Shown piece by piece: positions 156-34,158 of a stretch of DNA of 38,489 nucleotides (within the stretch, counting starts at the first letter, position 1; each line of letters starts with the position of its first letter). The position numbers and the translations under genes were made by a program. The stretch comes from an uncultured Bacteroidia bacterium (lineage in GTDB: Bacteria; Bacteroidota; Bacteroidia; Bacteroidales; Prolixibacteraceae). The notes under the pieces are model-generated. The model did not search any database and was not told the origin of the DNA. It was given only the letters and a program-made list of their open reading frames with translations. The stretch spans positions 1 to 38,489 of the forward strand of contig CAIVGL010000056.1 of assembly GCA_903905505.1 (NCBI GenBank), given 5' to 3'.

Positions 156-208
156 AAAAAAAATTGCATTTTGAAAAGAATCGGAGTTTGGCTTTCAAAA
201 TGCAATTT
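156..208 (-). terminator. Rho-independent terminator of the caspase operon
   Basis: Perfect 16-bp arms (AAATTGCATTTTGAAA at 161-176 and its complement at 193-208) with a 16-base loop. On the minus strand the stem is followed by an unbroken run of T (complement of the A run at 156-163). It lies about 180 bases beyond the stop codon of the caspase gene at 390. Confidence 0.7.
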
Positions 209-389: not shown

Positions 390-3300
390 TTATTTTAATC
401 GAAATGAATTCCAAGCATCTTGAATTTGAGAACCTGTATTTACTTGAGGAGTTTGTGATTTTTTATTAACCACCACCGATTGTTGAGTCACATTGGTAGT
501 AATAAATTCCTTTAATTCACTTAAGGTTGCATCGCCCTTTGTCTCCTGAATTTTTTTCAATAAAAAATAGGTAAACATACCATGCTGTTTGTCATAATAA
601 GGAAATGCTGTTTCGTCGCCAGTAGCTGCGCTAAAAACAACCAGATTGCCAGGAACCAAATCATCTTTGGGTTTAATTTTCACTCCGCGACCTTCTGCTA
701 ACATCGTACCATTTGATTCGCGAGTTGCACCACTAAAACAGGCATCAAGGAATGCAGTAACCGAAAGCGAGGGAAACTCTGTTAATTTAGCATAGATATC
801 AGAAAGTTTTACTGCGGATGACAAATTTTGTGAGTTGCCATCTACTGGCAAAATAAATGCATTTTTCGACTGTTCTTCAGGCATTCCATGTCCCGCATAG
901 TAAAAAATAATCCGTGCTTGACCTTTGTAGGCCTTAGAAACCTCGTTAATCCATTTTAATGCGTCCAAAATCTGACCATATGTCGCATTTTCAATATAAT
1001 GAATGTTATTTAAAGGCAATCCCATAGTTTTAACAAGATATTGCTTTAATATCCTAGCATCATTCAAAGCAAATTTGACTTTAATCTCCTTTGAATAAAC
1101 TTCATTTCCAATGACCACGGCAAAGATTTTGTCATTAACAACAGAATTGGCTGGTATATTTTCATCAACATCTGAAATGAAATCTGGAATATCTTCAATA
1201 ACAACTTTGCCTTTAATTGGAGAATCCATTGATGCTACATTTCGAATATACCCTTCCTCTTCTAGTTTTTTATTGATTTCTACGGATTTAGTTTGAGCGA
1301 ATCCAAAATTATTAGTCCTTTCTTCAGCTTTAACCTTAAATTCTAATTGGTTTCCAGTAAAGTCACTATTTACAAAGTATCGAAATGTAAGCGTTTCAAA
1401 TTTGCCTGATCCGATAGAGGTAAAAGATGGATTTTGCCGAGATAATTTTCCGGAGCTCTCAACCACATTTAAAAACATAACACCTTTTTGCTCATTAATA
1501 AGAGACACGCGCACGTTATCAGCATCGCCTTGTCCTACATTCTGCAAGGCAAATTTTACGTCTATCTGCTCATTAATATCAATTTGATTATTTGGATTTG
1601 CCGAAAGATTCTCTACTACAGCAAACTTAGCAACAATTAACTCGGGTTTTAAAAATTCCCGCGTAGGGAATTTAACTTGTTTACCTTGAATCTTAACTTT
1701 GAAATTAGGTTCAACCACTTCAATTTTAAGCACAGCGCTTGAAGTCGGAAGATCCATTTCTCCTTGTATAGTAATATTTACCGTTTCGACACCTCCATTC
1801 CTAGCAATCACGGGGAATACAGTCTTTGGATCTGCCTTTATTCCCTTTAGTTCACTAGATAAATTTACAAAGACATCTTTTGCATCTCCTGGCCCAATAT
1901 TTTTCAGAGTTAAGGATAAGACTGCAGCCTCATTCGCTCTTAAACTGTTTTTTGAAAATGAGATGTCTTGAATAGACAGAATAGGAGGAAGAAAATTAGT
2001 GGCATTATCAACCGTTAAGGTATCACTAGGCACTTTCTTTTCAGCTGGCTTATTTTTTAGAACTCGAGATCCTTCTTTGAACTCCTTAAAAACCCCGTGC
2101 AGAACGAGTTCAATAGAAATCTTACGATATTGTGAGCCCTTCTCTTTCGCGACAAAAGTATAATGTTGAAAATGCAATTTCGCCTTATTAAGAGGTTCAA
2201 TATAATCTAGAATAAACTTCCGGACTCCATAAGTTCTTAAAAAAGCAAGCTGTTCATTCTTTTTAATGCCTGTTTTTTTAGTCAGGGACATGCTTTCCAG
2301 ATTATTATTATTGAAGTATGGTTCATCTTCAAAATCCCCAAAATCATCAGCATAAGGAATCGCATTTACAATCGGAGTTCCATCTGTAGACCCTGTAATT
2401 TTGACAGTAACATCCATACCACTTTTAATGTACTTGATAAGCTCTTTCTCGATAGTTTCCTTTAATATCTGAACTGTTATTCTCGCGGCATTGGAAGAGG
2501 TAAGCTTATATTTTCCTAATGGAAAATCATCAGTTTGATTCTCCACCGTTGCCTTTATCACCTCATAGCTATACTCTACGTGATAATTTAACTCTGGATT
2601 TCCCGTAGAATCTTTTTCAACAACGATACTTGTATTAACATTAAGATCAACATTTTCAGATATGATCTTTTCATTCTTCTTCTCTTTGATATAAGAAGTC
2701 AGCCTTCCTTTTAGCGTGTCTTGCCGATTAGCAACTTCTGCAATTACTTCCGCTGGAGGTGCGACGATCTCTTCTATACGGTAAAGTTCATTGGTCTTGA
2801 TACCACTTTCATCATAATAAAAAACCTTTCCATCTATCGTATTTTTCAACTCCAAATAACTCAATTTGAAGTCTTCATCATTGTATACAAATTGAAAATT
2901 TGCAGGTTTTAAATTTTTAAAATTTTGACTGAAGTTCTCGGCTTCGTTTTTAGGAATCTTTAAATTGATAGGCAAGGTTTTATTAAAATTAATAGAAAAA
3001 GTTTCTTTGTCTTTATTGTAAGAAGATAGCTCCGCATTTGCAAACGAATAGTTTTTTAACGCATATTTATTGACAATGCTATTTTGGATTTTTTTAACCT
3101 GAATTGCCTTATTCGAATAAGAGATCCTTTCTTGAAACTGAGTTAAGGATTCATTTTCCAACTTCTTCTCCCAATTTGCTATTTCATGTTGAATCTCATT
3201 CTTTATAATATAATCATAGGGCAAAGGCAGATCCGTTGTCTCCCAAGCCCTAAGGGTTTTATCATCTCCTCCAGTTAATAAATACTCACGCTTGGAATCA

Positions 3301-4142
3301 TTATCAAATAAAAAGATAGCTTTTCTAATTGGGGCGTTATAATTTTCAAGAACTTTAAACTTTGTCCCCTTTCTTAAAGACCAAATTATTAATTTATTAT
3401 CATTGCCGACACTAGCGGCATAGAAACCATTTCGTGTTATGGCCACACTATTTACACCGCCAACATGACCATTTAGATTATATCGCACTTCTCCTGAGCT
3501 TGAATCCATTATTTTAATGGAACCATCAGATCCTCCAACTGTTAAAAAGGCATCATCCGAGCTAATTGCAATGGAGGTAATCGGCATTTTCACTTGCAAT
3601 AATTTCTCGAGCTGCAAAGTTGACATATTCCAAAGAGAGATTGTTCCATCATCATTAGCGGCGTAGAGTTTAGTGCCACTAGAATTAAAACACATCCCTT
3701 TTATTAGGCCGTTATTGCTTTTAAAATTTGCAATAATTTTATTTTGTTTAAAGTCAGTTATGTGAATCTCCAAATCTTCAGCAGCACTTGCTAAGGTACC
3801 CTGGGGAGAGAAGCAAATAGAACTAATTGGCTTTTTATGACTGTTAAAGGTTTTAAATAAGGTTATTTTATCATCAATTCTCCAAACCTGAACTTTACTA
3901 TCTGCAGCATTCGCGATATACCGCCCAGTAGGATTTAGTGCAATGGCATTAACATGTTCGTTTTCTATAATAGGAACCTTCCAAGCAAAAACTTCATGAT
4001 TGTTCGTGCAGGTATAAATAGAATAAACATGAGCAGTAATATCCGTAATAGGATTTTCAAACTTTAGCTCGCGAGAAAGATTTATCTGAGCATTTAAAGA
4101 AAAGGTAAATAGTATGCCAATAATTGGCAGAAGTGATTTCAT
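390..4142 (-). CDS. Secreted WD40-repeat caspase-family (C14) protein
   Basis: A 1250-residue protein with an N-terminal signal peptide (about residues 1-19, ending NAQ), so it is exported. Residues about 40-305 hold WD40-like repeats (for example LSGxDGSIKIMD-like and DDKTLRAWE segments). A middle part around 575-690 has GSTDGTPI and a later LAFLRTYGVRKFI stretch that resemble an OmpA-C-like fold; this is only a guess. Two CARDB-like beta domains follow (about 720-810 and 850-960, both with N-x-G-x-GDA motifs). The C-terminal 248 residues are a caspase p20-like domain with His1085 in YYAGHG and Cys1135 in LDACFSG, so the catalytic dyad is intact. It is the last and largest gene of the minus-strand locus starting with a sigma factor at 9093. 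Caspase-type hydrolase identity is firm; substrate and role are unknown. Confidence 0.9.
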   Translation of the reverse strand: MKSLLPIIGILFTFSLNAQINLSRELKFENPITDITAHVYSIYTCTNNHEVFAWKVPIIENEHVNAIALNPTGRYIANAADSKVQVWRIDDKITLFKTFNSHKKPISSICFSPQGTLASAAEDLEIHITDFKQNKIIANFKSNNGLIKGMCFNSSGTKLYAANDDGTISLWNMSTLQLEKLLQVKMPITSIAISSDDAFLTVGGSDGSIKIMDSSSGEVRYNLNGHVGGVNSVAITRNGFYAASVGNDNKLIIWSLRKGTKFKVLENYNAPIRKAIFLFDNDSKREYLLTGGDDKTLRAWETTDLPLPYDYIIKNEIQHEIANWEKKLENESLTQFQERISYSNKAIQVKKIQNSIVNKYALKNYSFANAELSSYNKDKETFSINFNKTLPINLKIPKNEAENFSQNFKNLKPANFQFVYNDEDFKLSYLELKNTIDGKVFYYDESGIKTNELYRIEEIVAPPAEVIAEVANRQDTLKGRLTSYIKEKKNEKIISENVDLNVNTSIVVEKDSTGNPELNYHVEYSYEVIKATVENQTDDFPLGKYKLTSSNAARITVQILKETIEKELIKYIKSGMDVTVKITGSTDGTPIVNAIPYADDFGDFEDEPYFNNNNLESMSLTKKTGIKKNEQLAFLRTYGVRKFILDYIEPLNKAKLHFQHYTFVAKEKGSQYRKISIELVLHGVFKEFKEGSRVLKNKPAEKKVPSDTLTVDNATNFLPPILSIQDISFSKNSLRANEAAVLSLTLKNIGPGDAKDVFVNLSSELKGIKADPKTVFPVIARNGGVETVNITIQGEMDLPTSSAVLKIEVVEPNFKVKIQGKQVKFPTREFLKPELIVAKFAVVENLSANPNNQIDINEQIDVKFALQNVGQGDADNVRVSLINEQKGVMFLNVVESSGKLSRQNPSFTSIGSGKFETLTFRYFVNSDFTGNQLEFKVKAEERTNNFGFAQTKSVEINKKLEEEGYIRNVASMDSPIKGKVVIEDIPDFISDVDENIPANSVVNDKIFAVVIGNEVYSKEIKVKFALNDARILKQYLVKTMGLPLNNIHYIENATYGQILDALKWINEVSKAYKGQARIIFYYAGHGMPEEQSKNAFILPVDGNSQNLSSAVKLSDIYAKLTEFPSLSVTAFLDACFSGATRESNGTMLAEGRGVKIKPKDDLVPGNLVVFSAATGDETAFPYYDKQHGMFTYFLLKKIQETKGDATLSELKEFITTNVTQQSVVVNKKSQTPQVNTGSQIQDAWNSFRLK

Positions 4143-4218
4143 GACTGGCAGATTAAGTTTGATTGTTATTACCTTCTCAGTTTTTTATTGAAAAATTGGG
4201 TTTCTGATTCTATAACCT

Positions 4219-4255
4219 AGCTTGGGAGAATATCATAAAGAAATCCTCCCAAGCT
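4219..4255. repeat. Inverted repeat between the LPP20-like and caspase genes
   Basis: AGCTTGGGAG at 4219-4228 pairs with CTCCCAAGCT at 4246-4255 around 17 bases. No T run follows on either strand, so it may be a processing or mRNA-stability hairpin, or a weak terminator, in the 137-base gap between the two genes. Confidence 0.5.
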
Positions 4256-4279
4256 TAACAAAATGCGTTTACTCTTTTG

Positions 4280-4927
4280 TTAGAACTTCAATAATTTTTC
4301 TAATTTCTCATGAGCTATTTTAGTCTCCTCTTCTAAGCTCTTGCGAATTACTCGTTTTGCAACGTCAAATGCAGTGGCCATATTGTAAGCTAATCGAACA
4401 TTGACCTCAATATTCTTTCCCATTTTTTTGTACATTTCTAACATCGGAATAACTTGTCCAAGTTCCTGAGCAATAAGATTCTTTGATGCAGCAACAGTTT
4501 TAGTAACCGACGCAGCATCCTCATTGTTAAGCTGCTGATTGGCAATACTATTTTCAATCAGAGCCGCAACCTGCGTATTTATTTGACCCGCCAATTCCAA
4601 TTTTGCAGTTTCCATTGCTTGCATTTTTGCGGCAGTCTGAGTTTCGCCAATTGAGTTTCCTGAAGCCATGATATACTTCGACTCATTTTTATCATTCGTT
4701 TCAAGCTGTCTCATCCATGCACGCTCAAGCTGTTTATCCATTAAAGGAGATCCTGGAGCCACATAATAGCCATCCTTTACATATTTTCTTGCTTCTTTGC
4801 GTGCACTTTTTATTGCACGTGATGCAACATCCTTCTTTAATTCCTTTTCTGTTTGTTGTGCACTTAGGTTGTTAAAGGCGATACAAACCATGAGAAAAGC
4901 AAAAAATAATTTTAGAGTAGTTTTCAT
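4280..4927 (-). CDS. Secreted LPP20-like protein
   Basis: A 215-residue protein with a clear signal peptide (residues 1-23, ending LSAQ). Residues about 85-180 carry the pattern ASGNSIGETQTAAKMQAMETA followed by alternating Ala/Gln-rich helix and a later basic stretch. This matches the layout of the LPP20-like fold, in which an 'ASG ... A ... A' segment leads into a helix and a beta strand. The assignment is by eye and only moderate. It lies between the DUF4384-like gene (221-base gap) and the caspase gene (137-base gap), on the same strand. LPP20-like and DUF4384-like proteins are often found as envelope partners in other bacteria, so a periplasmic or outer-membrane accessory role is likely. 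No catalytic motif is visible. Confidence 0.75.
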   Translation of the reverse strand: MKTTLKLFFAFLMVCIAFNNLSAQQTEKELKKDVASRAIKSARKEARKYVKDGYYVAPGSPLMDKQLERAWMRQLETNDKNESKYIMASGNSIGETQTAAKMQAMETAKLELAGQINTQVAALIENSIANQQLNNEDAASVTKTVAASKNLIAQELGQVIPMLEMYKKMGKNIEVNVRLAYNMATAFDVAKRVIRKSLEEETKIAHEKLEKLLKF

Positions 4928-5148
4928 AATAGAGATTTAAAAATATTATTTTATGTTTATTAATATGCTTATTAGTGCTTAAAACATTAAAAACGTGACA
5001 AATTAATGAAATATAATTTTCGACTGGTCATACCAATACAAAATCAAAACTATTCCCCTGTTAGAATTTTTTAACGTAGGAAATTTGCGGTTTAACGCAA
5101 ATATTTATCGTTAGTTATGACAAGAAAAACTGAATAAACTCTTATAAA

Positions 5149-6048
5149 TTAAGGCTTAGAAATACTAAATTTGATTTGCTTTACTTGAAAATCAGGCATT
5201 GCAACTTTGCATTCTGAAATCCATTCTTGGAACTTTGAAGTTGGCATTTCTTTAGGAAGTATATATCCCTTCTCCAACATCTGAGCATCCGATAAAATTG
5301 GTTTTACATAAGTCGTTGGTGAAAACACAATGAAAACATGGTTGTATTCTATTAGCTTTTGTGTAAAAAGCTCAATTTCATCAGCTTTTGTTGTAAATCT
5401 ATTACACCCATCTAAGTTTGTAAAAAGATAATACGACTTGTCTCCTTCAATTTTAACCGCACTTTCATTTCCTTGATTCAAATAAGGAAAAAGTCTTCGA
5501 GTTACTTCGTTCCCCTCATCGATAAAGACAGACAAATATCCATCTATTGGAGATCTAAAATAAAGGATTAATCCCTGGGAAGTAACAAATGAATTAGTCT
5601 CGCATTCAAGTTTTGGGCAGCGCAATAATTTACAGTCTAGCATGGCCTTAGAACTAACAGGACGAACTTCTCCTTCAACTGAGCAAGATATCCAGATAAA
5701 CTTCTCTTTATGCTGAGTATTATCAAGCTGCTCTTGAATATCTTCTTTAAATTCTTTCCTAGTAGTCTTTATCCATTCTCCCTTTACTTTAGTCGATCCA
5801 ATAATATTATACGTAACTGCTCCATTATCTACTTTAATATCTGTATTTTGTTCCACAAAAGTTCCAAAAGCATTCTCTATTGCATTAATTTTTGCTAACT
5901 CCTCAGCCCTATCCCGAGATTGATCTTTGGTCATATTGCTCTCCATACGAACTTGACTCTTCCCTTTTGTAAAATGTGTTTTTTGCCCACATAGGAACAT
6001 GGGCCAAATGCAACCACAAAGAATTAAAAGCAGAAAATAGTGTTTCAT
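5149..6048 (-). CDS. Secreted DUF4384-like protein
   Basis: A 299-residue exported protein (signal peptide about residues 1-21). Residues about 30-130 form an Ala/Glu-rich alpha-beta segment containing DRAEELAKINAIENAFG, which resembles an LPP20/FlgT-N type domain. Residues about 150-260 contain the strands ILYFRSPIDGYLSVFID and RRLFPY, the hallmark pattern of DUF4384 (a beta domain describing 'pressure' of cell-surface modules, often next to peptidase or kinase domains). It follows the transglutaminase-like gene by 46 bases in the same direction, so the two are probably co-transcribed. Its role is unknown; a scaffold or ligand-binding part of an envelope module is the simplest reading. Confidence 0.75.
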   Translation of the reverse strand: MKHYFLLLILCGCIWPMFLCGQKTHFTKGKSQVRMESNMTKDQSRDRAEELAKINAIENAFGTFVEQNTDIKVDNGAVTYNIIGSTKVKGEWIKTTRKEFKEDIQEQLDNTQHKEKFIWISCSVEGEVRPVSSKAMLDCKLLRCPKLECETNSFVTSQGLILYFRSPIDGYLSVFIDEGNEVTRRLFPYLNQGNESAVKIEGDKSYYLFTNLDGCNRFTTKADEIELFTQKLIEYNHVFIVFSPTTYVKPILSDAQMLEKGYILPKEMPTSKFQEWISECKVAMPDFQVKQIKFSISKP

Positions 6049-6094
6049 AAATATTTGAAAATCAATACAAAAAAAATGCTAGGCAATTTAAATT

Positions 6095-7648
6095 TTATTC
6101 AACAAACTCAGGATCTAGATTAGCAAGCTTGGGCATAACTTGCCCACAAGAGGCGCCAATATAAGTTGGATCACAATTGTAAAATAATTTATTTTTATAT
6201 TTAAAACTCTTTTGCGTCGAGACATTATTCAAATTTACAGCTAATGAAACATGCTCAGGATAGACTAATCCAACTGTTTCTAAATTTGTAAAATGCTTGA
6301 TGAGCTTTGATAGAAGGATTGCACGATCTTCACAATCAGCTGCTGGATAAAAAATTGTTTCATCAGCAAAAAAATACTTCTCCCGTCCGAATTGTTCTTG
6401 ATCTATCTGATAATTAATATTTTGTTGCACATAGTTTAACAGATAGGCGGCTCTTTCATCATCATTTTTATCCTTTAGTATTGGACCTAAGGCTTCATCA
6501 AATTGTTTCATGATAGACTTGGATAATGGGCTATTAAAAACCACCTTTAGTTCACATGGAGGATAATTATTATAAAATTCAATCAAATTCTTGTTAACCT
6601 TAAATTTGATCGCATTTTTTTTCCCAATAGTTTTGGTAATATACTGAGCACCAAATTGTGGGACCTCATTTAAAAGGAATGAAAATCCAATCTTACTGCC
6701 TGGATAATCTGCTTCATATATAGAAAGAAGATGAGCATCTGGAGAGGTTAGATTAAAATCAAACAAATAGTACGCGATTCCTTTTACAAGATAGCTTGTG
6801 GTATAGATTTTCTCATTGGCAGGAAGCAACAAATATATTTGGTCTTTATTGTATCCGATTTTTGCATTATAACCATTCCTAATCAGCGCAAACCAAGTGA
6901 ACAAAACTTGCTCATTACTTTCTTTGTAAATTTTCTTTGAGGCTGTCATAATCATAGATGCAATTCCCCAGTCGTTAAGGCCTGAATTAACCGAATTTTC
7001 CTTAAGTGATTTGATTGTATTATTAATCAATTTAGAATTCGACGCTGAAGTAAAAAAATGAATTATTTCATCATTATTAACCGCGCTAATTTTAGGAACT
7101 TCAGAGGTCAAAAAGGGCATGGAAATCGTTGACCCATAAAATATAAAAGAGGAATACAAGGAAGATGTATTAAAAACAGTTGCTTTTTTGGGTAAAGAAT
7201 CTGCAGGAAGAGTCTTAATATCGTTCTCCTTAACTATATTTGAATGGCTGCCATTATCATCTTTGGGTGATTCATCCTTCGGACTTGATTGCGATTTAAT
7301 CTTTAAGGTGTCCTTTAATATGACAGCGTCAGGAGCTTTAATAAGTTGCAAGTCTTCTCGTGATGAAGAAACTTCCATAGGAGTTTTAGGCTTATGAATA
7401 ACTGGCCTTAAATTCTGAATTCCGTCAAATTCTTTCCAAGATTGCGACAAAAATTGTATGAAAACAGAATCATTATGCGATAAGAAAGCATTATACTCCT
7501 GATTGATAGAATTCTTGAACGAATCAAACTGACTTTGAAAATCATTACTCTTAGTTGATTCTTGGGCACGAAGACCAAATGAGATGAATAGTAGTCCAAT
7601 GATTATCCCAATATGCCAATGACTTTTCCGTTTTTTATCTAGTTTCAT
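6095..7648 (-). CDS. Transglutaminase-like secreted or anchored protein
   Basis: From the ATG at 7648 the product is 517 residues; a TTG two codons upstream is a less likely start. After a basic start, residues about 10-29 are hydrophobic (signal peptide or anchor, ending LRAQ). Residues 50-150 are low-complexity and Ser/Lys-rich. The C-terminal part contains YPAADCEDRAILLSKLI (Cys439), LVYPEHVSLAV (His466) and FYNCDPTYIGA (Asp493). This is the ordered Cys-His-Asp triad of the transglutaminase/protease-like superfamily, in the usual spacing. It is therefore a likely active cysteine enzyme acting outside the cytoplasm. It sits between the anti-sigma-like gene and the DUF4384-like gene in a six-gene minus-strand locus. 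Confidence 0.8.
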   Translation of the reverse strand: MKLDKKRKSHWHIGIIIGLLFISFGLRAQESTKSNDFQSQFDSFKNSINQEYNAFLSHNDSVFIQFLSQSWKEFDGIQNLRPVIHKPKTPMEVSSSREDLQLIKAPDAVILKDTLKIKSQSSPKDESPKDDNGSHSNIVKENDIKTLPADSLPKKATVFNTSSLYSSFIFYGSTISMPFLTSEVPKISAVNNDEIIHFFTSASNSKLINNTIKSLKENSVNSGLNDWGIASMIMTASKKIYKESNEQVLFTWFALIRNGYNAKIGYNKDQIYLLLPANEKIYTTSYLVKGIAYYLFDFNLTSPDAHLLSIYEADYPGSKIGFSFLLNEVPQFGAQYITKTIGKKNAIKFKVNKNLIEFYNNYPPCELKVVFNSPLSKSIMKQFDEALGPILKDKNDDERAAYLLNYVQQNINYQIDQEQFGREKYFFADETIFYPAADCEDRAILLSKLIKHFTNLETVGLVYPEHVSLAVNLNNVSTQKSFKYKNKLFYNCDPTYIGASCGQVMPKLANLDPEFVE

Positions 7649-7715
7649 ATTCAATGGGTATTTGGTCTCCTATTCTTAAGTTTTTATTGAATCTGAAGAA
7701 AAAGCTATATTCAAA

Positions 7716-8420
7716 TTATTTATTGATGGTAAATTTATAATTCTTAATTCGAGGCTCTAGAACATATGTGTAATTACCTGGCTCTAATCTCGATGGCATT
7801 AGTTTATAGCCAATATCTCCATTCTTTAATTTTATCTCAATAACTTTTTCTCCGGCATTATTAAAGATCAAAAGTGGCTTTTCTGACTGCGTCGAAACAG
7901 ATGGCCAAATAAAAGTAATAGTATCTGAAGCTTGATAAATGGACCCATTTCTAGGCAATTTATGGTTATATAAAATCGATTCATTTTCATTTGAAAAATC
8001 AATACTTCCATATTCTTTTATGGTATTCTTCTGCCCTTGCAGAATATTTTCTTTAGTATCTGTTACTGGGGCTTTGATGCTAAGGACCAGTTCTGAATTG
8101 CGGTGTTCCTTTAAATTTTTGGATATTACCAAAGATCCTATACCTACTAAAATAAATAAGGATGCAGCGACAAGCCAAGTATTTCTTTTTGCGGAGTGAG
8201 CATGCTTCTCTGCCATAATCAATAATTTTATATGTTGTTTTAAATCTTCGTGTTGCGCACTTTTTACCCAGGCCTCTTGAAGAGCGATTCTTGCTGAAAA
8301 CTTTCTTTTCAAATCAGCATCCTCAGTAATACTCTTTTCAAACTTAATTCTTGCTTCCTCAGCAAGGGATCCATCAAGGTAGCTTTCAATAAGAGAATCC
8401 TCTTCTTTATTATTTTTCAT
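7716..8420 (-). CDS. Anti-sigma-factor-like membrane protein
   Basis: A 234-residue protein with one transmembrane segment (about residues 82-101, WLVAASLFILVGIGSLVI). The N-terminal 80 residues are cytoplasmic and include SLIESYLDGSLAEEARIKFE, the usual opening of Bacteroidota anti-sigma proteins. No HxxxCxxC zinc motif is present. The C-terminal 130 residues are extracytoplasmic beta-rich sequence (LIFNNAGEKVIEIKLKNG ... LEPGNYTYVLEP). It starts 22 bases after the sigma-factor gene stops, which is the normal arrangement of an ECF sigma factor with its membrane anti-sigma partner. Function is inferred from topology and position. Confidence 0.8.
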   Translation of the reverse strand: MKNNKEEDSLIESYLDGSLAEEARIKFEKSITEDADLKRKFSARIALQEAWVKSAQHEDLKQHIKLLIMAEKHAHSAKRNTWLVAASLFILVGIGSLVISKNLKEHRNSELVLSIKAPVTDTKENILQGQKNTIKEYGSIDFSNENESILYNHKLPRNGSIYQASDTITFIWPSVSTQSEKPLLIFNNAGEKVIEIKLKNGDIGYKLMPSRLEPGNYTYVLEPRIKNYKFTINK

Positions 8421-8442
8421 AATTCATAGAATTAACTAATTA

Positions 8443-9093
8443 CTAACTTATTATTTCCTTCCAATGATGATCCTTTAAAATAACTAATTTGAGTTTTTCA
8501 AGACAGCGTTTAAAACGTTGTCTCGCATTATCAACTTCAACATCAAGGAGCTTTGCAATATCCTCAAATTTGATATTTCCTACCTTAGGCTCAGTCACTA
8601 ACCCACTATCTTCTTGATTACTAGACAATCCAAATCGCAAATCGATAATCTGCTTGCAATTTTCATCCATATTGTTTTTAAGGAAAGTCATTCTATTAAT
8701 CAATGCATCCTGATCTGATTCAGTAGTTTCAGAAGCTAATCCAACATGATCGATCTCGCGTAGATCTGTAACTATTTTCAACTCCTTCAAACAGATATTT
8801 CTACAAATTGAAGATAGATAGGTTTTAAACGAACTTTCTCCTTTAAACTTTTGTTCTCGCACATTAATAACGGCACGCATCAAACCTTCTTGAAAAATAT
8901 CCTCCGCAACTAAAACCAAATTGCGAAAAGAATTCACCATTATTTTTATGCTTGGATAATAAAGTTTATAGATATAGCGTATCATTTTATCATCATTATT
9001 TAAAATACCAGAGATGATTTCATCTTCTTCGTATTTTTCCCTATTGTACTTGAAAAAGGAATAATGTGACAACTGAGACTTAATATTTTTCAT
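8443..9093 (-). CDS. ECF-type sigma-70 family RNA polymerase sigma factor
   Basis: A 216-residue protein. Residues about 25-105 form sigma region 2 (IYKLYYPSIKIMVNSF, then LVAEDIFQEGLMRAVIN for the -10 recognition helix, then FKTYLSSICRNICLKELK). Residues about 135-212 form region 4 with a helix-turn-helix near KFEDIAKLLDVEVDNARQRFKRCLEKLK. It is the first gene of the minus-strand locus and is followed by the anti-sigma-like gene. ECF sigma factors usually control their own operon, so it probably directs expression of the envelope genes behind it. The N-terminal ~25 residues are somewhat longer than in typical family members. Confidence 0.9.
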   Translation of the reverse strand: MKNIKSQLSHYSFFKYNREKYEEDEIISGILNNDDKMIRYIYKLYYPSIKIMVNSFRNLVLVAEDIFQEGLMRAVINVREQKFKGESSFKTYLSSICRNICLKELKIVTDLREIDHVGLASETTESDQDALINRMTFLKNNMDENCKQIIDLRFGLSSNQEDSGLVTEPKVGNIKFEDIAKLLDVEVDNARQRFKRCLEKLKLVILKDHHWKEIIS

Positions 9094-21960: not shown

Positions 21961-22977
21961 ATGGAGCAAACAGCACTGTTACTGGTCAACCTTGGCACAC
22001 CCGACTCACCCTCGCTGTCAGACGTTCGGAGATACCTCTTCCAATTTCTAAACGATAGACGGGTGATCGACATCCCATGGGTCTTTCAAAAAGCCCTGGT
22101 AAACTTGATAATCGTCCCATTTAGAGCCCCGGGATCAACAAAATTATATAAACGCTTGTGGAGCGAAAAAGGATCTCCCCTGCTTTACCATTCGGAGTCG
22201 GTAGCGGAAAAAATTCAAGAGAGACTGGGATCAACCTATACCGTGTTTAACGCCATGCGTTACGGCAAACCAGACCTTAAACTGGTCCTTCGAGAGATCG
22301 AAAAACAACAGTTTAAGAAAATTATCGTCCTGCCCGTATTTCCACAATACGCCTCTGCCACAACGGGTTCCGTATTCGAACTGGTGATGAAAGAGATGAA
22401 AAATTGGCAGAAATTTCCAAACCTACAGCTGATAAGTAACTTCCACGACCACCCTGCCTTCGTAAAAGCTTTCGCAGCTCAAGGACGGAAATACGACGTG
22501 AAAAAATACGACCACGTGATCTTCTCCTTCCATGGATTGCCTCTGTCGCAAATTAGTAAACTGCATAACGGCGCGAACTGCAAAAATTGCAACTGCGCCA
22601 ACCAAAATATCCCGGAAGGTAAACTATGCTACAAAGCGGCCTGCTACGAGACCGCACGCCTGATAGCCGCCGAACTAAACCTTACCCCGGAAGACTATAC
22701 CATCAGCTTCCAATCGCGACTAAGCAAAAATTGGATGTCGCCATTTACCGATAAGGTGCTGATCGAAAAAGCAAAAGCCGGAACAAAAAAAATACTGGTC
22801 TTTGCCCCATCCTTCGTCGCCGACTGCCTCGAGACAAAAGTGGAAATCGAATACGAATATGGCGAACTATTCCATGAAAATGGGGGCGAAGAGCTTCAAA
22901 TGGTCGACAGCCTGAACGATACTCCCGAATGGATCGATGGATTAGAACAAATAATTACCGAACTTTGCGAGAAATAA
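21961..22977 (+). CDS. hemH: Ferrochelatase
   Basis: A 338-residue enzyme that inserts ferrous iron into protoporphyrin IX, the last step of heme synthesis (EC 4.98.1.1). It has the family opening LLLVNLGTPDSP, the catalytic His191 in FSFHGLP, and the acidic Glu pair near CLETKVEIE (Glu291, Glu295). A Cys-rich stretch, ANCKNCNCANQN followed by CYKAACYETA, is present, but a [2Fe-2S] cluster cannot be asserted from sequence. Length is normal. It is the first gene of the cluster, 33 bases before hemF, and is preceded by the leader RNA. Confidence 0.97.
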   Translation: MEQTALLLVNLGTPDSPSLSDVRRYLFQFLNDRRVIDIPWVFQKALVNLIIVPFRAPGSTKLYKRLWSEKGSPLLYHSESVAEKIQERLGSTYTVFNAMRYGKPDLKLVLREIEKQQFKKIIVLPVFPQYASATTGSVFELVMKEMKNWQKFPNLQLISNFHDHPAFVKAFAAQGRKYDVKKYDHVIFSFHGLPLSQISKLHNGANCKNCNCANQNIPEGKLCYKAACYETARLIAAELNLTPEDYTISFQSRLSKNWMSPFTDKVLIEKAKAGTKKILVFAPSFVADCLETKVEIEYEYGELFHENGGEELQMVDSLNDTPEWIDGLEQIITELCEK

Positions 22978-23010
22978 TCACTCGAGAAGTTAAAATAGGA
23001 AGTCAACGCT

Positions 23011-23931
23011 ATGCAGTTTAAAGATCACTGGATCGAAACCATCCATAACTTACAAGATACCATCTGCCATGCATTGGAGAAATGCGACGGCAAGGCAACC
23101 TTCACCGAAGACCAATGGACACGTCCAGAAGGGGGTGGCGGCAAGACTCGGGTAATCAACCATGGAGCTGTATTTGAAAAAGGGGGCGTCAACACCTCCG
23201 TTGTTTATGGCACCGTCAGCGAGGCCATGCGTAATGAACTAAAGATTGATGGCGATAAATGGTTTGCCTGCGGATTGAGTCTGGTGATACACCCAGCAAA
23301 CCCTTTCGTACCAACCATACACTGCAACTACCGCATGTTTGAGCTGTACGACAAAAACGACCAGGTGCTAACACGCTGGTTTGGCGGAGGGACCGATCTA
23401 ACCCCCTATTACCTGTTCGATGAAGATGCGATCCATTTTCACCAGAGTTATAAAGATGTCTGCGACCAGTTTGACCCTACGTTTTATGCCACCTTTAAAG
23501 AGAACTGCGACGAATATTTTGTCAATGAACACCGAAACAGGGAGCGACGTGGCGTAGGGGGGATATTTTACGACCATCAAAAACCTTCGGATCAAAAAGA
23601 TCCGGAGTTCTGGCTTAACTTCTCCAAAGCATGCGGCGAAGCTTTTATCACAGCCTATATCCCGATCGTGGAAAAACGACGCAACGACACCTACACCGAA
23701 GCACATAAATACTGGCAAGAGATACGCCGAGGTCGTTATGTTGAGTTTAACCTCATCCACGACCGTGGGACCATCTTTGGATTAAAAACCAATGGTCGCA
23801 CCGAGAGTATCCTGATGACCTTGCCGCCTACGGTGCGGTTTGATTACAACCAAAAGCCTGAAGCGGGAAGCGAGGAAGATCGGCTTTTGCAAGCTTGTCT
23901 CCATCCTCGCAACTGGATTAAAACAGTCTAA
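23011..23931 (+). CDS. hemF: Coproporphyrinogen III oxidase, oxygen-dependent
   Basis: A 306-residue enzyme (EC 1.3.3.3) that oxidatively decarboxylates coproporphyrinogen III using oxygen. It shows the family blocks TRPEGGGGKTRVI, NYRMFELYD, WFGGGTDLTPYY, HRNRERRGVGGIFYD and RGRYVEFNLIHDRGTIFGL. It lies 33 bases after hemH and only 8 bases before the response regulator gene, so all are probably on one message. The cluster also encodes HemN, the oxygen-independent enzyme for the same step, suggesting a switch between oxic and anoxic growth. Confidence 0.97.
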   Translation: MQFKDHWIETIHNLQDTICHALEKCDGKATFTEDQWTRPEGGGGKTRVINHGAVFEKGGVNTSVVYGTVSEAMRNELKIDGDKWFACGLSLVIHPANPFVPTIHCNYRMFELYDKNDQVLTRWFGGGTDLTPYYLFDEDAIHFHQSYKDVCDQFDPTFYATFKENCDEYFVNEHRNRERRGVGGIFYDHQKPSDQKDPEFWLNFSKACGEAFITAYIPIVEKRRNDTYTEAHKYWQEIRRGRYVEFNLIHDRGTIFGLKTNGRTESILMTLPPTVRFDYNQKPEAGSEEDRLLQACLHPRNWIKTV

Positions 23932-23939
23932 AACGAAGT

Positions 23940-24617
23940 ATGAAGATCTTAATTGTCGAAGACGAGAAGCCATTATCGGACTCCATGGTCGAATATCTTT
24001 CGGAAGAGGGGCACCACAGCGAAGCGGTGTACACCTACAACGATGCGGTAGAGAAGATTAGGATGTACCAATATGACTGCGCCGTGGTGGATATCAACCT
24101 ACCCGATGGGAATGGCCTCGACCTGATCCGAATGATCAAGAAACAATCGATCACACTTGGAATCATCATCATATCGGCACTTAACTCGCTAGAAAACAGA
24201 ATCGAAGGGCTTGAGATCGGGGCCGACAACTATTTGACAAAGCCGTTTCATCTGGCTGAATTAAATGCACATCTAAAATCGATCAATCGAAGAATTAGCT
24301 ACGGAGGAAATAACCAGATCGTGGTGAATGAGATCCGACTGATACCCGATGAGCATATGATTTTTGTCCATGAGGTACAAGTTACGTTGACGAAAAAAGA
24401 GTATGAACTGCTCCTATTTTTCATCGCCAACAAAAATAAGGTGATCACCAAAGCTGGGCTCGCCGAATACCTCTGGGGTGACTACATGGATCTGGCCGAT
24501 TCGTACGATTTTATCTATACGCACATCAAAAATCTACGCAGCAAACTGCTCAAAAAAGGGTGCGAAGATTACATCAAAACTATTTATGGACTCGGTTATA
24601 AATTCGAAATCAATTGA
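23940..24617 (+). CDS. OmpR/PhoB-type response regulator
   Basis: A 225-residue regulator. Residues 1-120 are a receiver domain with the acidic pair Glu7-Asp8, the phosphorylation site Asp51 (AVVDINLPDG), Ser79 and Lys101 (LTKPF). Residues about 128-225 are a winged helix ending in IYGLGYKFE, the OmpR signature. It is translationally coupled to the kinase gene: its TGA stop overlaps the kinase's TTG start. Lying between hemF and hemA, it may control heme synthesis in response to oxygen, heme or a metal, but the target is not shown by the sequence. Confidence 0.95.
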   Translation: MKILIVEDEKPLSDSMVEYLSEEGHHSEAVYTYNDAVEKIRMYQYDCAVVDINLPDGNGLDLIRMIKKQSITLGIIIISALNSLENRIEGLEIGADNYLTKPFHLAELNAHLKSINRRISYGGNNQIVVNEIRLIPDEHMIFVHEVQVTLTKKEYELLLFFIANKNKVITKAGLAEYLWGDYMDLADSYDFIYTHIKNLRSKLLKKGCEDYIKTIYGLGYKFEIN

Positions 24618-25879
24618 GACTCTTAAATAAAATAACACTCAACTTGCTGGCGATCTCCCTCTTCGTTTTTCTGATTGGGATGATGGCCTTTTACTATATT
24701 TTGCGCAAGCAGGTGGATCAAAATATCAATTTAGAGCTTCAAAATCGAGCATCCAGCATTACAAAAGAGTTCGATGCGGCCCATTCGTATGCCAATCAGC
24801 TGTCGAATATGAGCGACACGATCATCATCACACCGCTGAAAAACTTTCAGAAAGCTGAGAAATTTAGCGATACCTTACTCTTAAATCCCGAAACGAAGAA
24901 ATATGTCTTGTATCGCGAGCACGGCTTTGTGAACAGCATTCACGGTCAGAATTATTACATCCAGATCTTTAAACCTCTAGAGGAGAGCGATCGACTGATT
25001 GTCCGTATTGTGATGGTGATGAACCTGTTGGTTATGATGATCATCCTCACCTTGATTGTGGTCAACCGATATCTGTCGCGTCAGGACTGGAAAGTTTTTT
25101 ACGATACGATTGCGAAGATCAACAATTATGAGGTTAACTCAGACAAGGCTTTTGAGTTGCAAGAATCAGATATTAAAGAGTTTGAAGATCTGAATCGGGT
25201 GATTGTCACCATGACCAAACGGATAAAAAACGACTATCTAAATCTGAAGGAGTACATCGAAAATGCGTCGCATGAGATTCAAACACCCCTTGCGATCATC
25301 AATTCGAAGATGGAGCTCTTGCTGCAGTCGGGCGATATGCAAGAGAAACAATACAAATCGGTTGCCGAAGCGTATGAAGCTTCTAATCGTCTTTCGCGAC
25401 TGAACAAAACGCTTATTCTCTTGGCTAAGATTGAAAACAGGCAGTTTCCTGAACTTAAGCCTGTGAATCCAGCGATTATGATCAATCATCAGTTGGAAAG
25501 CCTGGAAGATCTGATCCATTCGAAGAAGATCAAGATCACCAAACTTCTTGATCCGGAAGCGACCATCTCCGTGAATCCCTATCTGGCTGAGATCTTGTTC
25601 GTGAACCTAATCAAAAATGCCATCCGTCACAACCTCACGGGAGGTCATCTGATTTTGGAACTCACGTCTCAAAGTTTGAAGATTGCCAATTCTGGATCGT
25701 CAACGCCACTCGATCCCGAGATGTTGTTTAAGCGCTTCCATACCTCGTCGTCGTCGCCAGAGTCGCTTGGCTTGGGCTTGTCGATTGTGCAAAAGATCTG
25801 CACCATGTATGGATTTCAGATCTCGTACCGCTACGAAGATGAACTGCACGTGATGCAAGTTAATTTTTCCAAAGCGTAG
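24614..25879 (+). CDS. Membrane sensor histidine kinase
   Basis: A 421-residue kinase. Two transmembrane segments (about 8-29 and 127-150) enclose a roughly 95-residue periplasmic sensor with no recognised domain. Then follow a HAMP-like linker, the dimerisation domain with His220 in ENASHEIQTPLAII, and the ATPase domain with the N box NLIKNAIRH (331-339) and the G box LGLGLSIVQKI. The G1 motif is replaced by NSG, as in several short Bacteroidota kinases. The start is TTG at 24614, in a 4-base overlap with the response-regulator stop; the next Met would cut into the first membrane segment, so TTG is preferred. Confidence 0.92.
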   Translation: MRLLNKITLNLLAISLFVFLIGMMAFYYILRKQVDQNINLELQNRASSITKEFDAAHSYANQLSNMSDTIIITPLKNFQKAEKFSDTLLLNPETKKYVLYREHGFVNSIHGQNYYIQIFKPLEESDRLIVRIVMVMNLLVMMIILTLIVVNRYLSRQDWKVFYDTIAKINNYEVNSDKAFELQESDIKEFEDLNRVIVTMTKRIKNDYLNLKEYIENASHEIQTPLAIINSKMELLLQSGDMQEKQYKSVAEAYEASNRLSRLNKTLILLAKIENRQFPELKPVNPAIMINHQLESLEDLIHSKKIKITKLLDPEATISVNPYLAEILFVNLIKNAIRHNLTGGHLILELTSQSLKIANSGSSTPLDPEMLFKRFHTSSSSPESLGLGLSIVQKICTMYGFQISYRYEDELHVMQVNFSKA

Positions 25880-26291
25880 CGCAAATCGCGTGACCGTTTT
25901 TCTCTGCTCCTACCCCTTCGAATCAAAATATTCGCTGAATTGAATTGTTTTGAAAAAAAATTAAAAAAAAATCATCTTTTTTTAATTCATAAACGATCTA
26001 AACAATTCGGCCCGGGTCGGTTTTTGAGATTTTAGACTTCACTGAAACTGAAAACAGACGCTTTCAAATTCAATTCTCAAAACCCTGCTATTCAGCACTT
26101 AAAAACAAGTCCTTGGCCAATCCGAGTCAAAGTTTACGACCGCAAATTTTATATTGTTAAGCTAATTTTATTTAGATTAAAAATCAATAAGGAGAGGCGT
26201 CCCCGAGCTTGCTTCAATTCTGTGTTTTACTTCAGATTTGCTTCAGATTCTATTTCTAAAATTGTACTCAAGATATCAAGAAAGCAAAAGC
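25880..26291. other. Gap between the kinase and hemA
   Basis: This 412-base gap has an AT-only hairpin (AATTAAAAAAA at 25959-25969 against TTTTTTTAATT at 25977-25987), which may act as a terminator for the first half of the cluster. The stretch 26150-26290 would hold a hemA promoter, but no exact TAnnTTTG box is present. Two similar copies of TTGCTTCA-x-ATTCT-type sequence lie at 26209 and 26238. Confidence 0.45.
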
Positions 26292-27542
26292 ATGATCGGA
26301 TTAATTGGTTTAAATCATAAGTCGGCTCCCATCGACATCAGAGAGAAGTTTGTATTTTGCGAAGAGGATATCAGACGGTTTGTTCCCCAGCTCTTAACAC
26401 AAGGTATTGCGGGTGCGGTGGTTGTTTCAACCTGTAATCGGACTGAGATCTACTTCGAACTTAAAGAGCACGCTTCAGCTGCTGATTTTGAACAAATCAT
26501 CAACACCCTTATACAGTACCGCAAAGCAAATGCGGAGGTAAAAGCCCATTTCTATCACATGAAAAACGAAGAGGCTGTAAAGCATCTCTTCCGCGTGGTA
26601 TCGGGTCTTGACTCTATGGCGCTTGGCGAATACCAGATAGTTGGTCAGATTAAAGAGGCTTTTAGTATCAGTCAGAGCAATCAACATTGCAGTTCAATCC
26701 TCTATAAGCTATTTAACGAAGCGCTAAAGACTGGAAAAGATATCAGAACCAATACTGCACTGAATAAAGGTGCCGTTTCAATGAGTTATGCTGGCGTAGA
26801 GCTTGCCGGTCAGAAACTTCAAAACCTAACCTCTCACCCAGTATTGTTAGTGGGCGCAGGTCAGACCAGTGAGTTGACCTTATTAAACTTGATTAAAAAA
26901 GAGTGCACCCAATTTACTGTGATCAATCGCACACAGGAGAAAGCGTGTGAACTAGCAGAGAAATACCATTGTAAAGTAGCGAATTTCGATCAACTTGAAG
27001 AGCTACTTCGGACCAATGACATCATCATAACCTCTACAGCCTCAAAGAAACCATTGTATACCGAAGAGATGGTGACTCGGGCTATGAAGGAACGGAACAA
27101 TCAACCCCTCTTATTTATCGACCTTTCGGTTCCACGTAATGTGGTCAATGAGGTCGGCGCCATCGAAAATGTGCATGTGTATGATGTGGATGCCTTAAAT
27201 GGGGTGATCGACGACAATTTAGAGCGTCGCAAAGGGGAGATCTCACATGCCGAACAGATCATTGAAGAGTCGGTATTGGAATTTACCCAATGGCAATCGA
27301 TTCAAGTTTTAGTCCCTACGTTTCAGAATATCTCCACCCGTTTTCAAGAGATTAACAAAACCATGCTTGACAGCTATGTTAAGAATCAAAATGAAGCAGA
27401 CCATGAAAAAGCTGCTGCTTACGGCGAATTAATTACGAAAAAAATTATTGGCCTTATGATCGAGAATGTAAAGACGGTCACCAATAATGGACAAGAGCAA
27501 GAGTACGTTTTAATGCTTAATAAGTTATTCGCGCAAAATTGA
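26292..27542 (+). CDS. hemA: Glutamyl-tRNA reductase
   Basis: A 416-residue enzyme from the ATG at 26292 (an upstream TTG at 26238 would add 18 residues of no family likeness). It reduces the glutamate of glutamyl-tRNA to glutamate-1-semialdehyde, the committed step of the C5 route (EC 1.2.1.70). The catalytic Cys48 lies in STCNRTEIY, the substrate motif in GLDSMALGEYQIVGQ, and the NADPH-binding site in VLLVGAGQTSE. The gene overlaps hemC by one base, so translation is coupled. HemA is usually the regulated step, so control of this gene matters most for the pathway. Confidence 0.97.
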   Translation: MIGLIGLNHKSAPIDIREKFVFCEEDIRRFVPQLLTQGIAGAVVVSTCNRTEIYFELKEHASAADFEQIINTLIQYRKANAEVKAHFYHMKNEEAVKHLFRVVSGLDSMALGEYQIVGQIKEAFSISQSNQHCSSILYKLFNEALKTGKDIRTNTALNKGAVSMSYAGVELAGQKLQNLTSHPVLLVGAGQTSELTLLNLIKKECTQFTVINRTQEKACELAEKYHCKVANFDQLEELLRTNDIIITSTASKKPLYTEEMVTRAMKERNNQPLLFIDLSVPRNVVNEVGAIENVHVYDVDALNGVIDDNLERRKGEISHAEQIIEESVLEFTQWQSIQVLVPTFQNISTRFQEINKTMLDSYVKNQNEADHEKAAAYGELITKKIIGLMIENVKTVTNNGQEQEYVLMLNKLFAQN

Positions 27543-29254
27543 TGGTTCAGAAGACGGTTAAAATTGGAACAAGGGGCAGTAAATTAGCGCTTTATCAAGC
27601 ATTTCTGGTCCAGGAAGGACTTCAGAAAGAGTTCCCCAACACAAACTTTTCCATTGAGATTATAAAAACCAAAGGAGATCAGATCTTGGATGTGGCCTTG
27701 TCGAAAATTGGCGATAAAGGGCTATTCACCAAGGAGATGGAGACGGCACTTTTCAATGGAGAGATCGACATGGCGGTCCATAGTTTGAAAGATCTACCCA
27801 CCAAATTTCCAGAGGGCGCTAAGCTCGGAGCGGTTCTTAAACGGGGCGATATCCGTGATGCGCTGGTAACCCTTGATGGACGAAAAATCAAAGACCTAAC
27901 CTCCGACGATATTATTGCCACCTCAAGTCTTCGACGTAAAGCACAACTGCTGCGGATCAACAAAGATTTTCAAATTATTGAGATTCGTGGTAACGTAAAC
28001 ACCCGTATTCGGAAGATGCAAGAGGGGTATTGCACAGCCATGGTGATGGCTGGGGCAGGTCTTCAACGATTAGAAATGGGTGAACATATCTCTGAATTCT
28101 TCGAGCCAGAGCTGATGATACCGGCTTGCAGTCAGGGTGCCATTGCGGTGGAGATCCGGATTAATGATGCCGAAATTGAAAATATTGTAGCCCAAATAAA
28201 TGACCAGACCACCTATCAAGCCACGGAAGCTGAACGGGCCTTTCTGGGCACTTTAGAAGGAGGATGTCAGATTCCAGTAGGGAGCTATACCAAGATCGAC
28301 GGTGATAACTTCGAAATCACCGGATTTATTTCCAGCATCGACGGGACAAAATATCTTCAGAAAACAGCCAATGGCTCTTTAGCACAGGCAACTTACCTAG
28401 CCGCAAAGCTAGCCAACGACTTATTCAAAAGCGGTGGATCCGAAATACTTACAGAGATACGAATTGAGACTGCTCAAGATCCGCATGCTGAATTGCCATT
28501 AAAAGAGAAGGTGATCATCTCAACCAGAGCCTTAGAAGCCAGTGATACCTTGCCTAGCATTATTCAGGCGAGCGGAGCAAAGGTGATCTCCTTTCCGATG
28601 ATTGAGATTATCCCAGCGCCACTGACAGATCAACTTAAAAATACGATCGAGAACTTAAATCAATTTGATTGGGTCTTCTTCACCAGTAAAAATGGGGTGG
28701 TGAACTTCTTCAAACAGCTGATCGACATTAAAGGGAGTTCTGATCTTCCTTCAACGCTGAAACTAGCTGTCATTGGATATAAAACGGCCCTTGAACTCGA
28801 ATATTATGGCTATGCCCCCACTTTTATCAGTGCGGAAAATACGGCGGAGGAATTAATCAACCGCTTTTGTGCCACGATCAATCCAAGAGATCTTAATATC
28901 TTACTTTCGTTAGGGAATCTTGCTGATAACACCCTTGAAGATCGACTTAAAAAAGAGAATGAAGTAAGTCGGATCAATGTCTATCAGACTGTTAAACCAA
29001 GCCAGGTTGATCCGAAAATCCTAGCAATCATCAAAAACAACCAATACGACCTCATCGTCTTCACCAGTCCTTCGACGTATCACAATTATTGTGAGGTGGC
29101 TGGGGCCGATGGCTTGAAAGAGTTAAAAATGGCCAGCATTGGTTCAATAACAACTAAAGCAATTCAGAAATCGGGCTTTGAACCTCTGTTCACCGCACAG
29201 AAATCGAATGCCGAAGGTATACGAGATGCAATTTTAGACTTTTATAAATCTTAA
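27542..29254 (+). CDS. hemC/hemD: Fused porphobilinogen deaminase and uroporphyrinogen-III synthase
   Basis: A 570-residue two-domain enzyme from the ATG at 27542. Residues 1-310 are HemC: Asp84 in AVHSLKDLP and the cofactor-bearing Cys242 in EGGCQIPVGS fall at the same positions as in the E. coli enzyme. Residues about 322-570 are HemD (EKVIISTRALEASDTLP, then FDWVFFTSKNGVVNFF, then YDLIVFTSPSTYHNYC). The first domain makes hydroxymethylbilane and the second closes it to uroporphyrinogen III, so fusion may channel the unstable intermediate. HemC-HemD fusions are known in Bacteroidota. No separate hemD gene is present. Confidence 0.95.
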   Translation: MVQKTVKIGTRGSKLALYQAFLVQEGLQKEFPNTNFSIEIIKTKGDQILDVALSKIGDKGLFTKEMETALFNGEIDMAVHSLKDLPTKFPEGAKLGAVLKRGDIRDALVTLDGRKIKDLTSDDIIATSSLRRKAQLLRINKDFQIIEIRGNVNTRIRKMQEGYCTAMVMAGAGLQRLEMGEHISEFFEPELMIPACSQGAIAVEIRINDAEIENIVAQINDQTTYQATEAERAFLGTLEGGCQIPVGSYTKIDGDNFEITGFISSIDGTKYLQKTANGSLAQATYLAAKLANDLFKSGGSEILTEIRIETAQDPHAELPLKEKVIISTRALEASDTLPSIIQASGAKVISFPMIEIIPAPLTDQLKNTIENLNQFDWVFFTSKNGVVNFFKQLIDIKGSSDLPSTLKLAVIGYKTALELEYYGYAPTFISAENTAEELINRFCATINPRDLNILLSLGNLADNTLEDRLKKENEVSRINVYQTVKPSQVDPKILAIIKNNQYDLIVFTSPSTYHNYCEVAGADGLKELKMASIGSITTKAIQKSGFEPLFTAQKSNAEGIRDAILDFYKS

Positions 29255-29265
29255 AATCTACGATT

Positions 29266-30243: not shown

Positions 30244-30267
30244 CCTATTTTATCTAAACAGAAGATT

Positions 30268-31560: not shown

Positions 31561-31739
31561 CTCAGAATTCCAATACAAACATTACTATAAATCAATATAA
31601 TTTAAATAAGAAATGTCACCAAATCTCAAAATTACACCAAATCAAGGAACAAGATAATTTCTTTGGTGTTCGTCGGTAGTCGCTTTGTGGCTTGGGGCCT
31701 TAGTGGCATAAAAAAGTATACATAAAATTTTAAATAAAT

Positions 31740-32774: not shown

Positions 32775-32777
32775 AAG

Positions 32778-34154: not shown

Positions 34155-34158
34155 ATAC

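Follow-up and report, generated by a model that had tools for sequence, protein, structure and literature searches.

Positions 390–9093 of the window, i.e. the whole 38,489-base stretch of DNA that was analysed (contig CAIVGL010000056.1, from a 2.9-Mb draft genome), hold six genes that probably form a Bacteroidales regulon of an extracytoplasmic function (ECF) sigma factor and its anti-sigma factor, exporting two cysteine proteases of unrelated folds together with non-enzymatic envelope partners. The six open reading frames (ORFs) are intact and all lie on the minus strand, as a preliminary description of this DNA had stated, in the order SIG (sigma factor), ANTI (putative anti-sigma factor), TG (transglutaminase-fold enzyme), D4384 (DUF4384-like protein), LPP and CASP (caspase). 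The further proposal that one ECF sigma factor controls the locus is supported in so far as a promoter-like motif is shared. The sequences also show N-termini of export type, active sites that are intact and, for TG, a LapG-like fold.

Relatives of D4384 were collected by a profile search of 295 genomes of the order (30 positive) and from named genomes (23 loci), and their flanks were searched with iterated profiles. We dropped loci representing the window or short copies (L001, L033 and L034), a duplicate of L013 (L004), a locus with no ORF passing the profile (L048) and loci with identical C-terminal 100 residues, which left 48 distinct relative loci. Three weak D4384 matches (G273, G183 and G118:C29) stand outside the 48, and G118:C29 was examined later. 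The loci were mostly gathered through D4384, so that all counts are conditional on this gene. SIG was present in ten of them, or 11 with L060, where it was read by eye; the SIG of L041 is a 73-aa fragment.

The sequence TGTCAC was found in the 290-nt 5′ regions of SIG in nine of the ten loci, compared with a mean of 0.43 and a maximum of 4 in 2000 random resamplings. In the tenth locus (L036), it lay slightly further in, and TGTCACA was seen at the SIG start in all ten. Eight of the ten SIG sites extend as TGTCACA-N15-(G/T)TAC, and L050 has ATAC. The pattern TGTCAC(A/T)-N15-KTAC occurred 15 times in the ten SIG loci (184 kb) and once in 59 other loci (848 kb), the lone site being that of L058, which bears ANTI. 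Permuted patterns gave a mean of 0.14 and a maximum of 3 in 300 runs. When the spacer of TGTCACA-N-GTAC was varied from 8 to 25 in the SIG loci, 14 sites were found at 15 and none at any other length.

A matrix was built from the ten SIG-start sites only, and the scan scored only positions passing a TGTCAC-like prefilter. Twenty sites scored ≥18, namely nine seeds and 11 others, and ten of these 11 preceded an LPP, caspase, TG or accessory gene. LPP sites lay 56 nt (L066), 62 nt (L045), 52 nt (L042) and 76 nt (L044) upstream; in L037 and L040, where the ORF call is too long, the site fell within the ORF but ahead of its homologous part. The caspase of L039 had its site 55 nt upstream; this gene is 6.3 kb from D4384, beyond four opposite-strand ORFs. 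The L058 site lay upstream (115 nt) of a truncated ORF with 41–59% identity to the N-termini of five caspases from the neighbourhoods. The others were at the TG of L044 (48 nt upstream), at an accessory gene of L037 (114 nt) and at one ORF-less place in L044. In the 55 loci that have neither SIG nor ANTI (824 kb), no prefiltered position reached 18, and five matches scored 11–14 (L017 twice, L073, L079 and L029). Ten matches in all scored 11–18, including the seed of L040, the LPP site of L050 (14.3) and the SIG start of L060; further ones within SIG loci were on the minus strand of L045 and in L036.

In the window, an informative-column matrix that excluded the window itself ranked the site at the SIG start (P1) first of 76,918 positions (23.0) and a site 5′ of LPP (P2) second (11.3), followed by 9.4 for the third. 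The strict pattern matched the own genome three times, including P1, and once in the backwards control. There was no sign of a wider regulon in the own genome in the strict and ≤3-mismatch scans, which cannot exclude one. Among exact matches elsewhere, four were opened because they belonged to D4384 carriers (three in G118 and one in G221), and those in three further carriers (G057, G061 and G078) were left unopened. In the non-seed genomes, two further SIG-ANTI loci, both absent from the motif-building set, had a site at the SIG start (L096, and L099 with TG next). Moreover, an LPP gene on another contig had a site 72 nt upstream and a D4384 relative after it (L098), and a gene that by inspection is lipoprotein-like had one 106 nt upstream (L097).

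The SIG site was within about 30 nt of the annotated SIG start in the ten loci, usually inside the ORF; in L036, where the ORF call is too early, it is further in. To judge by its letters being read in two frames, as ..LSH.. (window, L035 and L044) and as ..VTK.. (L045, L066, L096 and L099), the site is constrained as DNA. Protein conservation as the sole cause of the motif is ruled out by the two reading frames and by the sites outside ORFs. P1 as the promoter of SIG itself was set aside: by eye, the stretch from the predicted start of transcription to the conserved part of sigma showed no canonical start codon common to the loci. A shorter SIG may begin at a later start (Met37 in the window; an ATG just after the site in L060). 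We infer that P1 mainly drives the genes after SIG, which would amplify the anti-sigma factor and the effectors, not sigma.

Within 10 kb of D4384, the 48 loci contained a caspase in 26 cases, TG in 23, LPP in 21, ANTI in 11 and SIG in 10 (11 with L060). At least one module gene was found near D4384 in 38 loci, at least two in 29 and none in 10, and many loci were cut by contig ends. Where at least 9 kb was available on both sides of D4384, 13 of 14 loci had a caspase, the exception being L046, which had no module neighbour. Among the order-search loci, 16 of 29 had a caspase ≤10 kb from D4384, where the per-genome numbers of candidate caspases would predict 0.65. A caspase somewhere in the genome was found in all 29 other D4384 genomes and in the window's own, but in only 97 of 265 genomes without D4384; as the genomes are phylogenetically non-independent, Fisher values for gene co-occurrence overstate significance. 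The first-look caspase search missed the window's own caspase, so the total is given as at least 126 of 295 genomes, and other first-look searches may also miss members. Outside the order D4384 is rare, with two weak matches among 295 phylum genomes besides the own genome. One Chlorobiota-labelled contig (L043) has caspase-D4384-LPP.

ANTI immediately preceded TG in 11 loci and SIG did so in two (L040 and L041), and D4384 was next after TG in 13 of 13. The stretches with SIG then TG and no anti-sigma gene between span 1230–3343 in L040 and 1–1723 in L041. The exact six-gene order recurred in one of the 48 relative loci (L066, from a genome of another family of the order), and L045 had the same order with one insertion. 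Conservation across genomes holds for the neighbourhood and not for a fixed order: the genes make up a modular set, of which the arrangement in the window is one version, and not a fixed operon.

For SIG, assignment as an ECF sigma factor was confirmed by PF04542 (Sigma70_r2; 29.3 bits, cut-off 24) and TIGR02937 (sigma70-ECF; 70.3 bits, cut-off 42.9). Region 4 (PF04545) reached 15.9 bits, under its cut-off of 24.1. ANTI, described earlier as a membrane anti-sigma-like protein, has by inspection one transmembrane stretch and an outer domain. No NCBIfam anti-sigma model scored above cut-off (NF052375: 15.8 against 100 for the window protein; best value of the L066 relative 26.2 against 225), and ANTI is called a putative anti-sigma factor.

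CASP had been described as a WD40-caspase with His1085 and Cys1135, and both residues are exactly there; Peptidase_C14 (69.1 bits, cut-off 21.4) and WD40 were above cut-off. Among the caspases of the 48 relative loci, 28 of 29 keep both, in line with the expected conservation of catalytic residues. The sole exception was L075 (5740–7581), in which His and Cys are replaced by Leu and Pro. Asp1133, two residues before the cysteine, is kept in 29 of 29, and may form a basic-specificity pocket. By analogy with relative L036, a CARDB-like stretch may precede the C14 domain of CASP. The model of EACC1-associated caspases (NF047832) scored 55.8, under its cut-off of 140, and in PADLOC the WD40 part matched HEAT-ARM_XIII. 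In three relatives (L053 5166–9971, L054 5243–9923 and L056 2473–7279), two adjoining proteins both have the middle region of CASP. One of each pair has C14 and the other has no C14 match; in L053, this C14-less protein has WD40-like repeats. CASP combines in one chain parts that are split over two proteins there.

The catalytic triad claimed for TG is intact. Its numbering as 439/466/493 counts from an ATG two codons later; from the TTG start at 7654 the residues are Cys441, His468 and Asp495. The triad was invariant in 14 of 14 aligned homologues and kept in 24 of 24 TG proteins of relative loci. By fold comparison, including Foldseek, the best structural match was LapG, a periplasmic protease with a transglutaminase-type fold. 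TG is LapG-like by fold, but it was not filed as a member of LapG because of the lack of a sequence-profile relationship. Asp443 (Cys+2) was likewise invariant in 14 of 14 homologues and is a candidate calcium ligand, given the Cys+2 spacing that we take the ligand of LapG to have. In LapG, the ligand is Asp139 (PMC4866520). The TG profile matched in 25 of 61 relatives, mostly long paralogues of 870–900 aa. Longer TG paralogues (about 880–900 aa) outside the module were common in the same genus and order, e.g. L015 7606–10275, L014 2361–5018 and L028 9281–11920.

The two names given to the partner proteins fared less well. PF14326 (DUF4384) matched five of 22 D4384 homologues in the alignment (best E-value 2.2e-6) and not the window protein, of which the structure model had a predicted local distance difference test score (pLDDT) of 87.5. 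The LPP20 label was dropped, as PF02169, which we take to be the LPP20 accession, matched none of nine LPP homologues at E ≤0.1. Export was judged solely by an N-terminal hydrophobicity rule applied to relatives, and by this rule the proposed signal peptides were found as export-type N-termini in 29 of 29 caspases, 23 of 24 TG, 21 of 21 LPP and 42 of 48 D4384 proteins. In relatives, genes of surface type accompany the module, such as Fib_succ_major and FGE-sulfatase-domain genes after the L044 caspase. A family of 277–288 aa recurs near the caspase, with no Pfam match in the two members scanned, and its distant relative in L037 has a sigma site.

The coordinates are listed in the table. From SIG to CASP, the gaps are 22, 61, 46, 221 and 137 nt. 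SIG, ANTI, TG and D4384 look like a single transcription unit, with wide gaps 5′ of LPP (221 nt) and 5′ of CASP (137 nt). A terminator had been described only after the last gene. A hairpin with a U-tail does lie 3′ of CASP, and the 141-nt stretch containing it and a neighbouring hairpin folds with a z-score of −6.0; the consensus terminator scan did not have it among its listed sites. There is also a second hairpin, between LPP and CASP, of which the surrounding 81-nt stretch folds at −24.7 kcal/mol (z-score −4.3). Because of this hairpin and the wide gaps before LPP and CASP, the six genes may form more than one transcription unit.

Table. Features of the locus in window coordinates; the last row gives members in relative loci, each in the coordinates of its locus.
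Feature	Position	Strand	Basis
SIG, ECF sigma factor, 216 aa	8443..9093	-	PF04542, TIGR02937 above cut-off
P1, promoter-like site TTGTCACA-N15-GTACAATA, inside start of SIG ORF	9042..9072	-	matrix scan
ANTI, putative anti-sigma factor	7716..8420	-	8-row alignment; inspection
TG, cysteine enzyme of exported type with a transglutaminase fold; LapG is the closest solved fold	6095..7654	-	fold match
TG catalytic Cys441 codon; Asp443 two residues later	6332..6334	-	alignment
D4384, exported-type DUF4384-like protein, 299 aa	5149..6048	-	PF14326 in homologues
P2, weak promoter-like site TTGTCACG-N15-GCACTAAT, 44–74 nt 5′ of LPP	4971..5001	-	matrix scan
LPP, exported-type protein, 215 aa, no named family	4280..4927	-	9-row alignment
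Hairpin, 13-bp stem, without U-tract, between LPP and caspase	4219..4255	-	folding
CASP, exported-type WD40 - middle region - Peptidase_C14, 1250 aa	390..4142	-	Pfam; alignment
CASP His1085 codon (888–890) and Cys1135 codon (738–740)	within 390..4142	-	sequence
Intrinsic-terminator-like hairpin, then T run	162..207	-	folding
277–288-aa family members	L066 10989–11831; L036 13738–14604; L038 3257–4090; L039 19064–19927; L060 6848–7687		

Elsewhere in the window, G+C rises from 0.349 (1–22000) to 0.436 (22000–37000) near 22 kb, and is 0.37–0.41 in five further short stretches from this genome. On the plus strand, the translations at 21961–35517, read by eye, resemble a haem-biosynthesis cluster from ferrochelatase to protoporphyrinogen oxidase. 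A response regulator and a sensor kinase (23940–25879, named from translations only) are embedded in it, and a family-10 xylanase-like gene (36427–37506, plus strand, inspection only) adjoins it.

We infer the following working of the locus. An envelope signal would act on the periplasmic part of ANTI and release SIG. Freed SIG would read P1, giving ANTI, the LapG-like protease and D4384, and P2, giving LPP and then the caspase by read-through past the hairpin. The exported LapG-like and caspase-fold proteases would cut envelope or surface proteins, next to the envelope partners DUF4384-like protein and LPP and, in relatives, further exported-type and lipoprotein-like proteins. The role favoured is surface remodelling over self-killing, because LapG and its relative DvhG cleave surface adhesins, according to excerpts of PMC4359373 and PMC13090378, and because surface-type genes accompany the module (L044 and L097).

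A number of observations weigh against the sigma-controlled two-protease regulon. P1 lies inside the SIG ORF and so may not drive SIG. P2 is weak (9.1 with the full matrix, below the listing limit of 11), the window scan gave no site directly 5′ of CASP, and the hairpin separates LPP from the caspase. The SIG site of L040 has no second half (no TAC at the N15 spacing), and a leave-one-locus-out matrix ranked the SIG-start site first in five of ten loci, with one to two positions higher in the other five. In the own genome, ≤3 mismatches gave five matches (including P1 and P2) and 14 in the backwards control. Exact motif matches occurred in 98 of 295 order genomes, and a match alone means nothing. 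ANTI is missing between SIG and TG in L040 and L041. The Bacteroides/Muribaculaceae loci L053, L054 and L056 have a caspase, D4384, a 208-aa protein and TG, and no sigma pair in the flanks examined. Collected through TG instead, the loci gave a patchier result: just two of 20 (L013 and L019) contained a strong module neighbour, and TG was found in 76 of the 295 order genomes, D4384 in 30 and both in 24. As to the fold, the Foldseek E-value for LapG was never below 0.001, and a profile of 14 TG rows matched no PDB chain at E ≤10, i.e. there was no match to LapG at the sequence level.

The alternative that fares best, although we consider it possible rather than probable, adds an upstream role: the LapG-like enzyme or the caspase would cut periplasmic ANTI and free SIG in a positive feedback. 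The position of TG directly after ANTI in 11 relative loci, and after SIG in the two lacking ANTI there, is in its favour. There is also a precedent in the caspase-like Csx29, which cuts the sigma inhibitor Csx30, with DegS-RseA named as a parallel in excerpts of PMC10028731. However, loci without SIG keep TG and caspase, and would need another substrate.

A self-killing or anti-phage module, in which damage would lead the exported caspase and its partner protease to break down the envelope of their own cell, appears unlikely. Caspase homologues of prokaryotes are often proposed to act in cell death, also outside the cytoplasm (PMC3501461, in part), and the PADLOC 'caspase' profile matched C14 (E-value 1.4e-11). 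The other five proteins had no PADLOC match at E ≤0.01. Against this reading, no NTPase, adaptor or known defence partner was found among the six proteins in the Pfam and PADLOC scans. Moreover, some regulon members in relatives resemble ordinary surface proteins.

Similarly improbable is a true transglutaminase that cross-links LPP and D4384 or surface proteins into a covalent layer. The preliminary description of a transglutaminase-like enzyme holds for the fold; Transglut_core, however, reached 16.3 bits, under its cut-off of 23, and on the structural comparison proteolysis fits better than cross-linking because the closest structure is a periplasmic protease.

A chance neighbourhood of unrelated envelope genes is hardly credible: many relatives lack one or more parts, L046 has 10 kb on both sides of D4384 without another module gene and many TG paralogues are located elsewhere, but gene co-occurrence, the conserved TG-D4384 order and the motif shared by the SIG loci speak against it, and unlinked genes with the same sigma site (L039 and L098) contradict it.

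If the regulon is as proposed, it could be an extracytoplasmic programme of two proteases, with a caspase acting outside the cytoplasm at its centre. The role of prokaryotic caspase homologues is a long-standing question, for which many proposals concern death or immunity. The export-type caspases here have a promoter motif and a locus in common with a LapG-like protease. The motif is a direct handle: without the anti-sigma factor, or with sigma expressed, the caspase should be turned on jointly with its partners. It also points to additional members, some of them unlinked, in other genomes.

The comparison with known systems draws on excerpts of the cited papers. In the LapG/LapD-LapA and DvhG/DvhD systems, the cysteine protease has a transglutaminase fold, is periplasmic and holds calcium close to its active site; TG would be its counterpart here, with LapG as the best fold match. 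They differ in that there is no detectable sequence match and that the partners here are an ECF sigma factor, a caspase, and the DUF4384-like and LPP proteins; no search was aimed at homologues of LapD or LapA. ECF41 sigma factors have the same −35 TGTCACA and, in the excerpt, no detectable targets beyond neighbouring genes. However, their −10 is CGTC (GTAC-like here) (PMC3426412), and a large regulatory extension is fused to their C-terminus, unlike in the window, where SIG has 216 aa and ANTI is a gene of its own. The EACC2-caspase neighbourhoods (with an ECF sigma factor and a DUF1822 tetratricopeptide repeat protein) also have a caspase gene adjoining an ECF sigma gene (PMC8195603), but that caspase is fused to EACC2 with a proposed counter-invader role, whereas here there is an export-type N-terminus and other partners. 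Type III-E CRISPR loci (Csx29-Csx30-CASP-sigma) likewise encode an ECF sigma factor together with a caspase-like protease (PMC10028731). They are RNA-activated via Cas7-11, while here no Cas-type family was matched by any of the six proteins (Pfam and PADLOC). For surveyed prokaryotic metacaspases, possible signal-peptide N-terminal helices and sigma factors among operon neighbours have already been noted, but the part of that survey considered here describes no defined gene set, promoter or LapG-like partner (PMC3501461). Cyanobacterial orthocaspases include caspases with WD40, and DUF4384 in 23 of 473 (PMC8283722), whereas here a gene of its own encodes the DUF4384-like protein and the N-termini are of export type. 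Next to these systems, what is new in the locus is how parts of known kinds are combined. The chances are about even that it represents an undescribed class of Bacteroidales envelope system, i.e. a self-contained ECF regulon with a conserved promoter within the first codons of the sigma gene and an exported caspase, a LapG-like protease and dedicated partners as its output.

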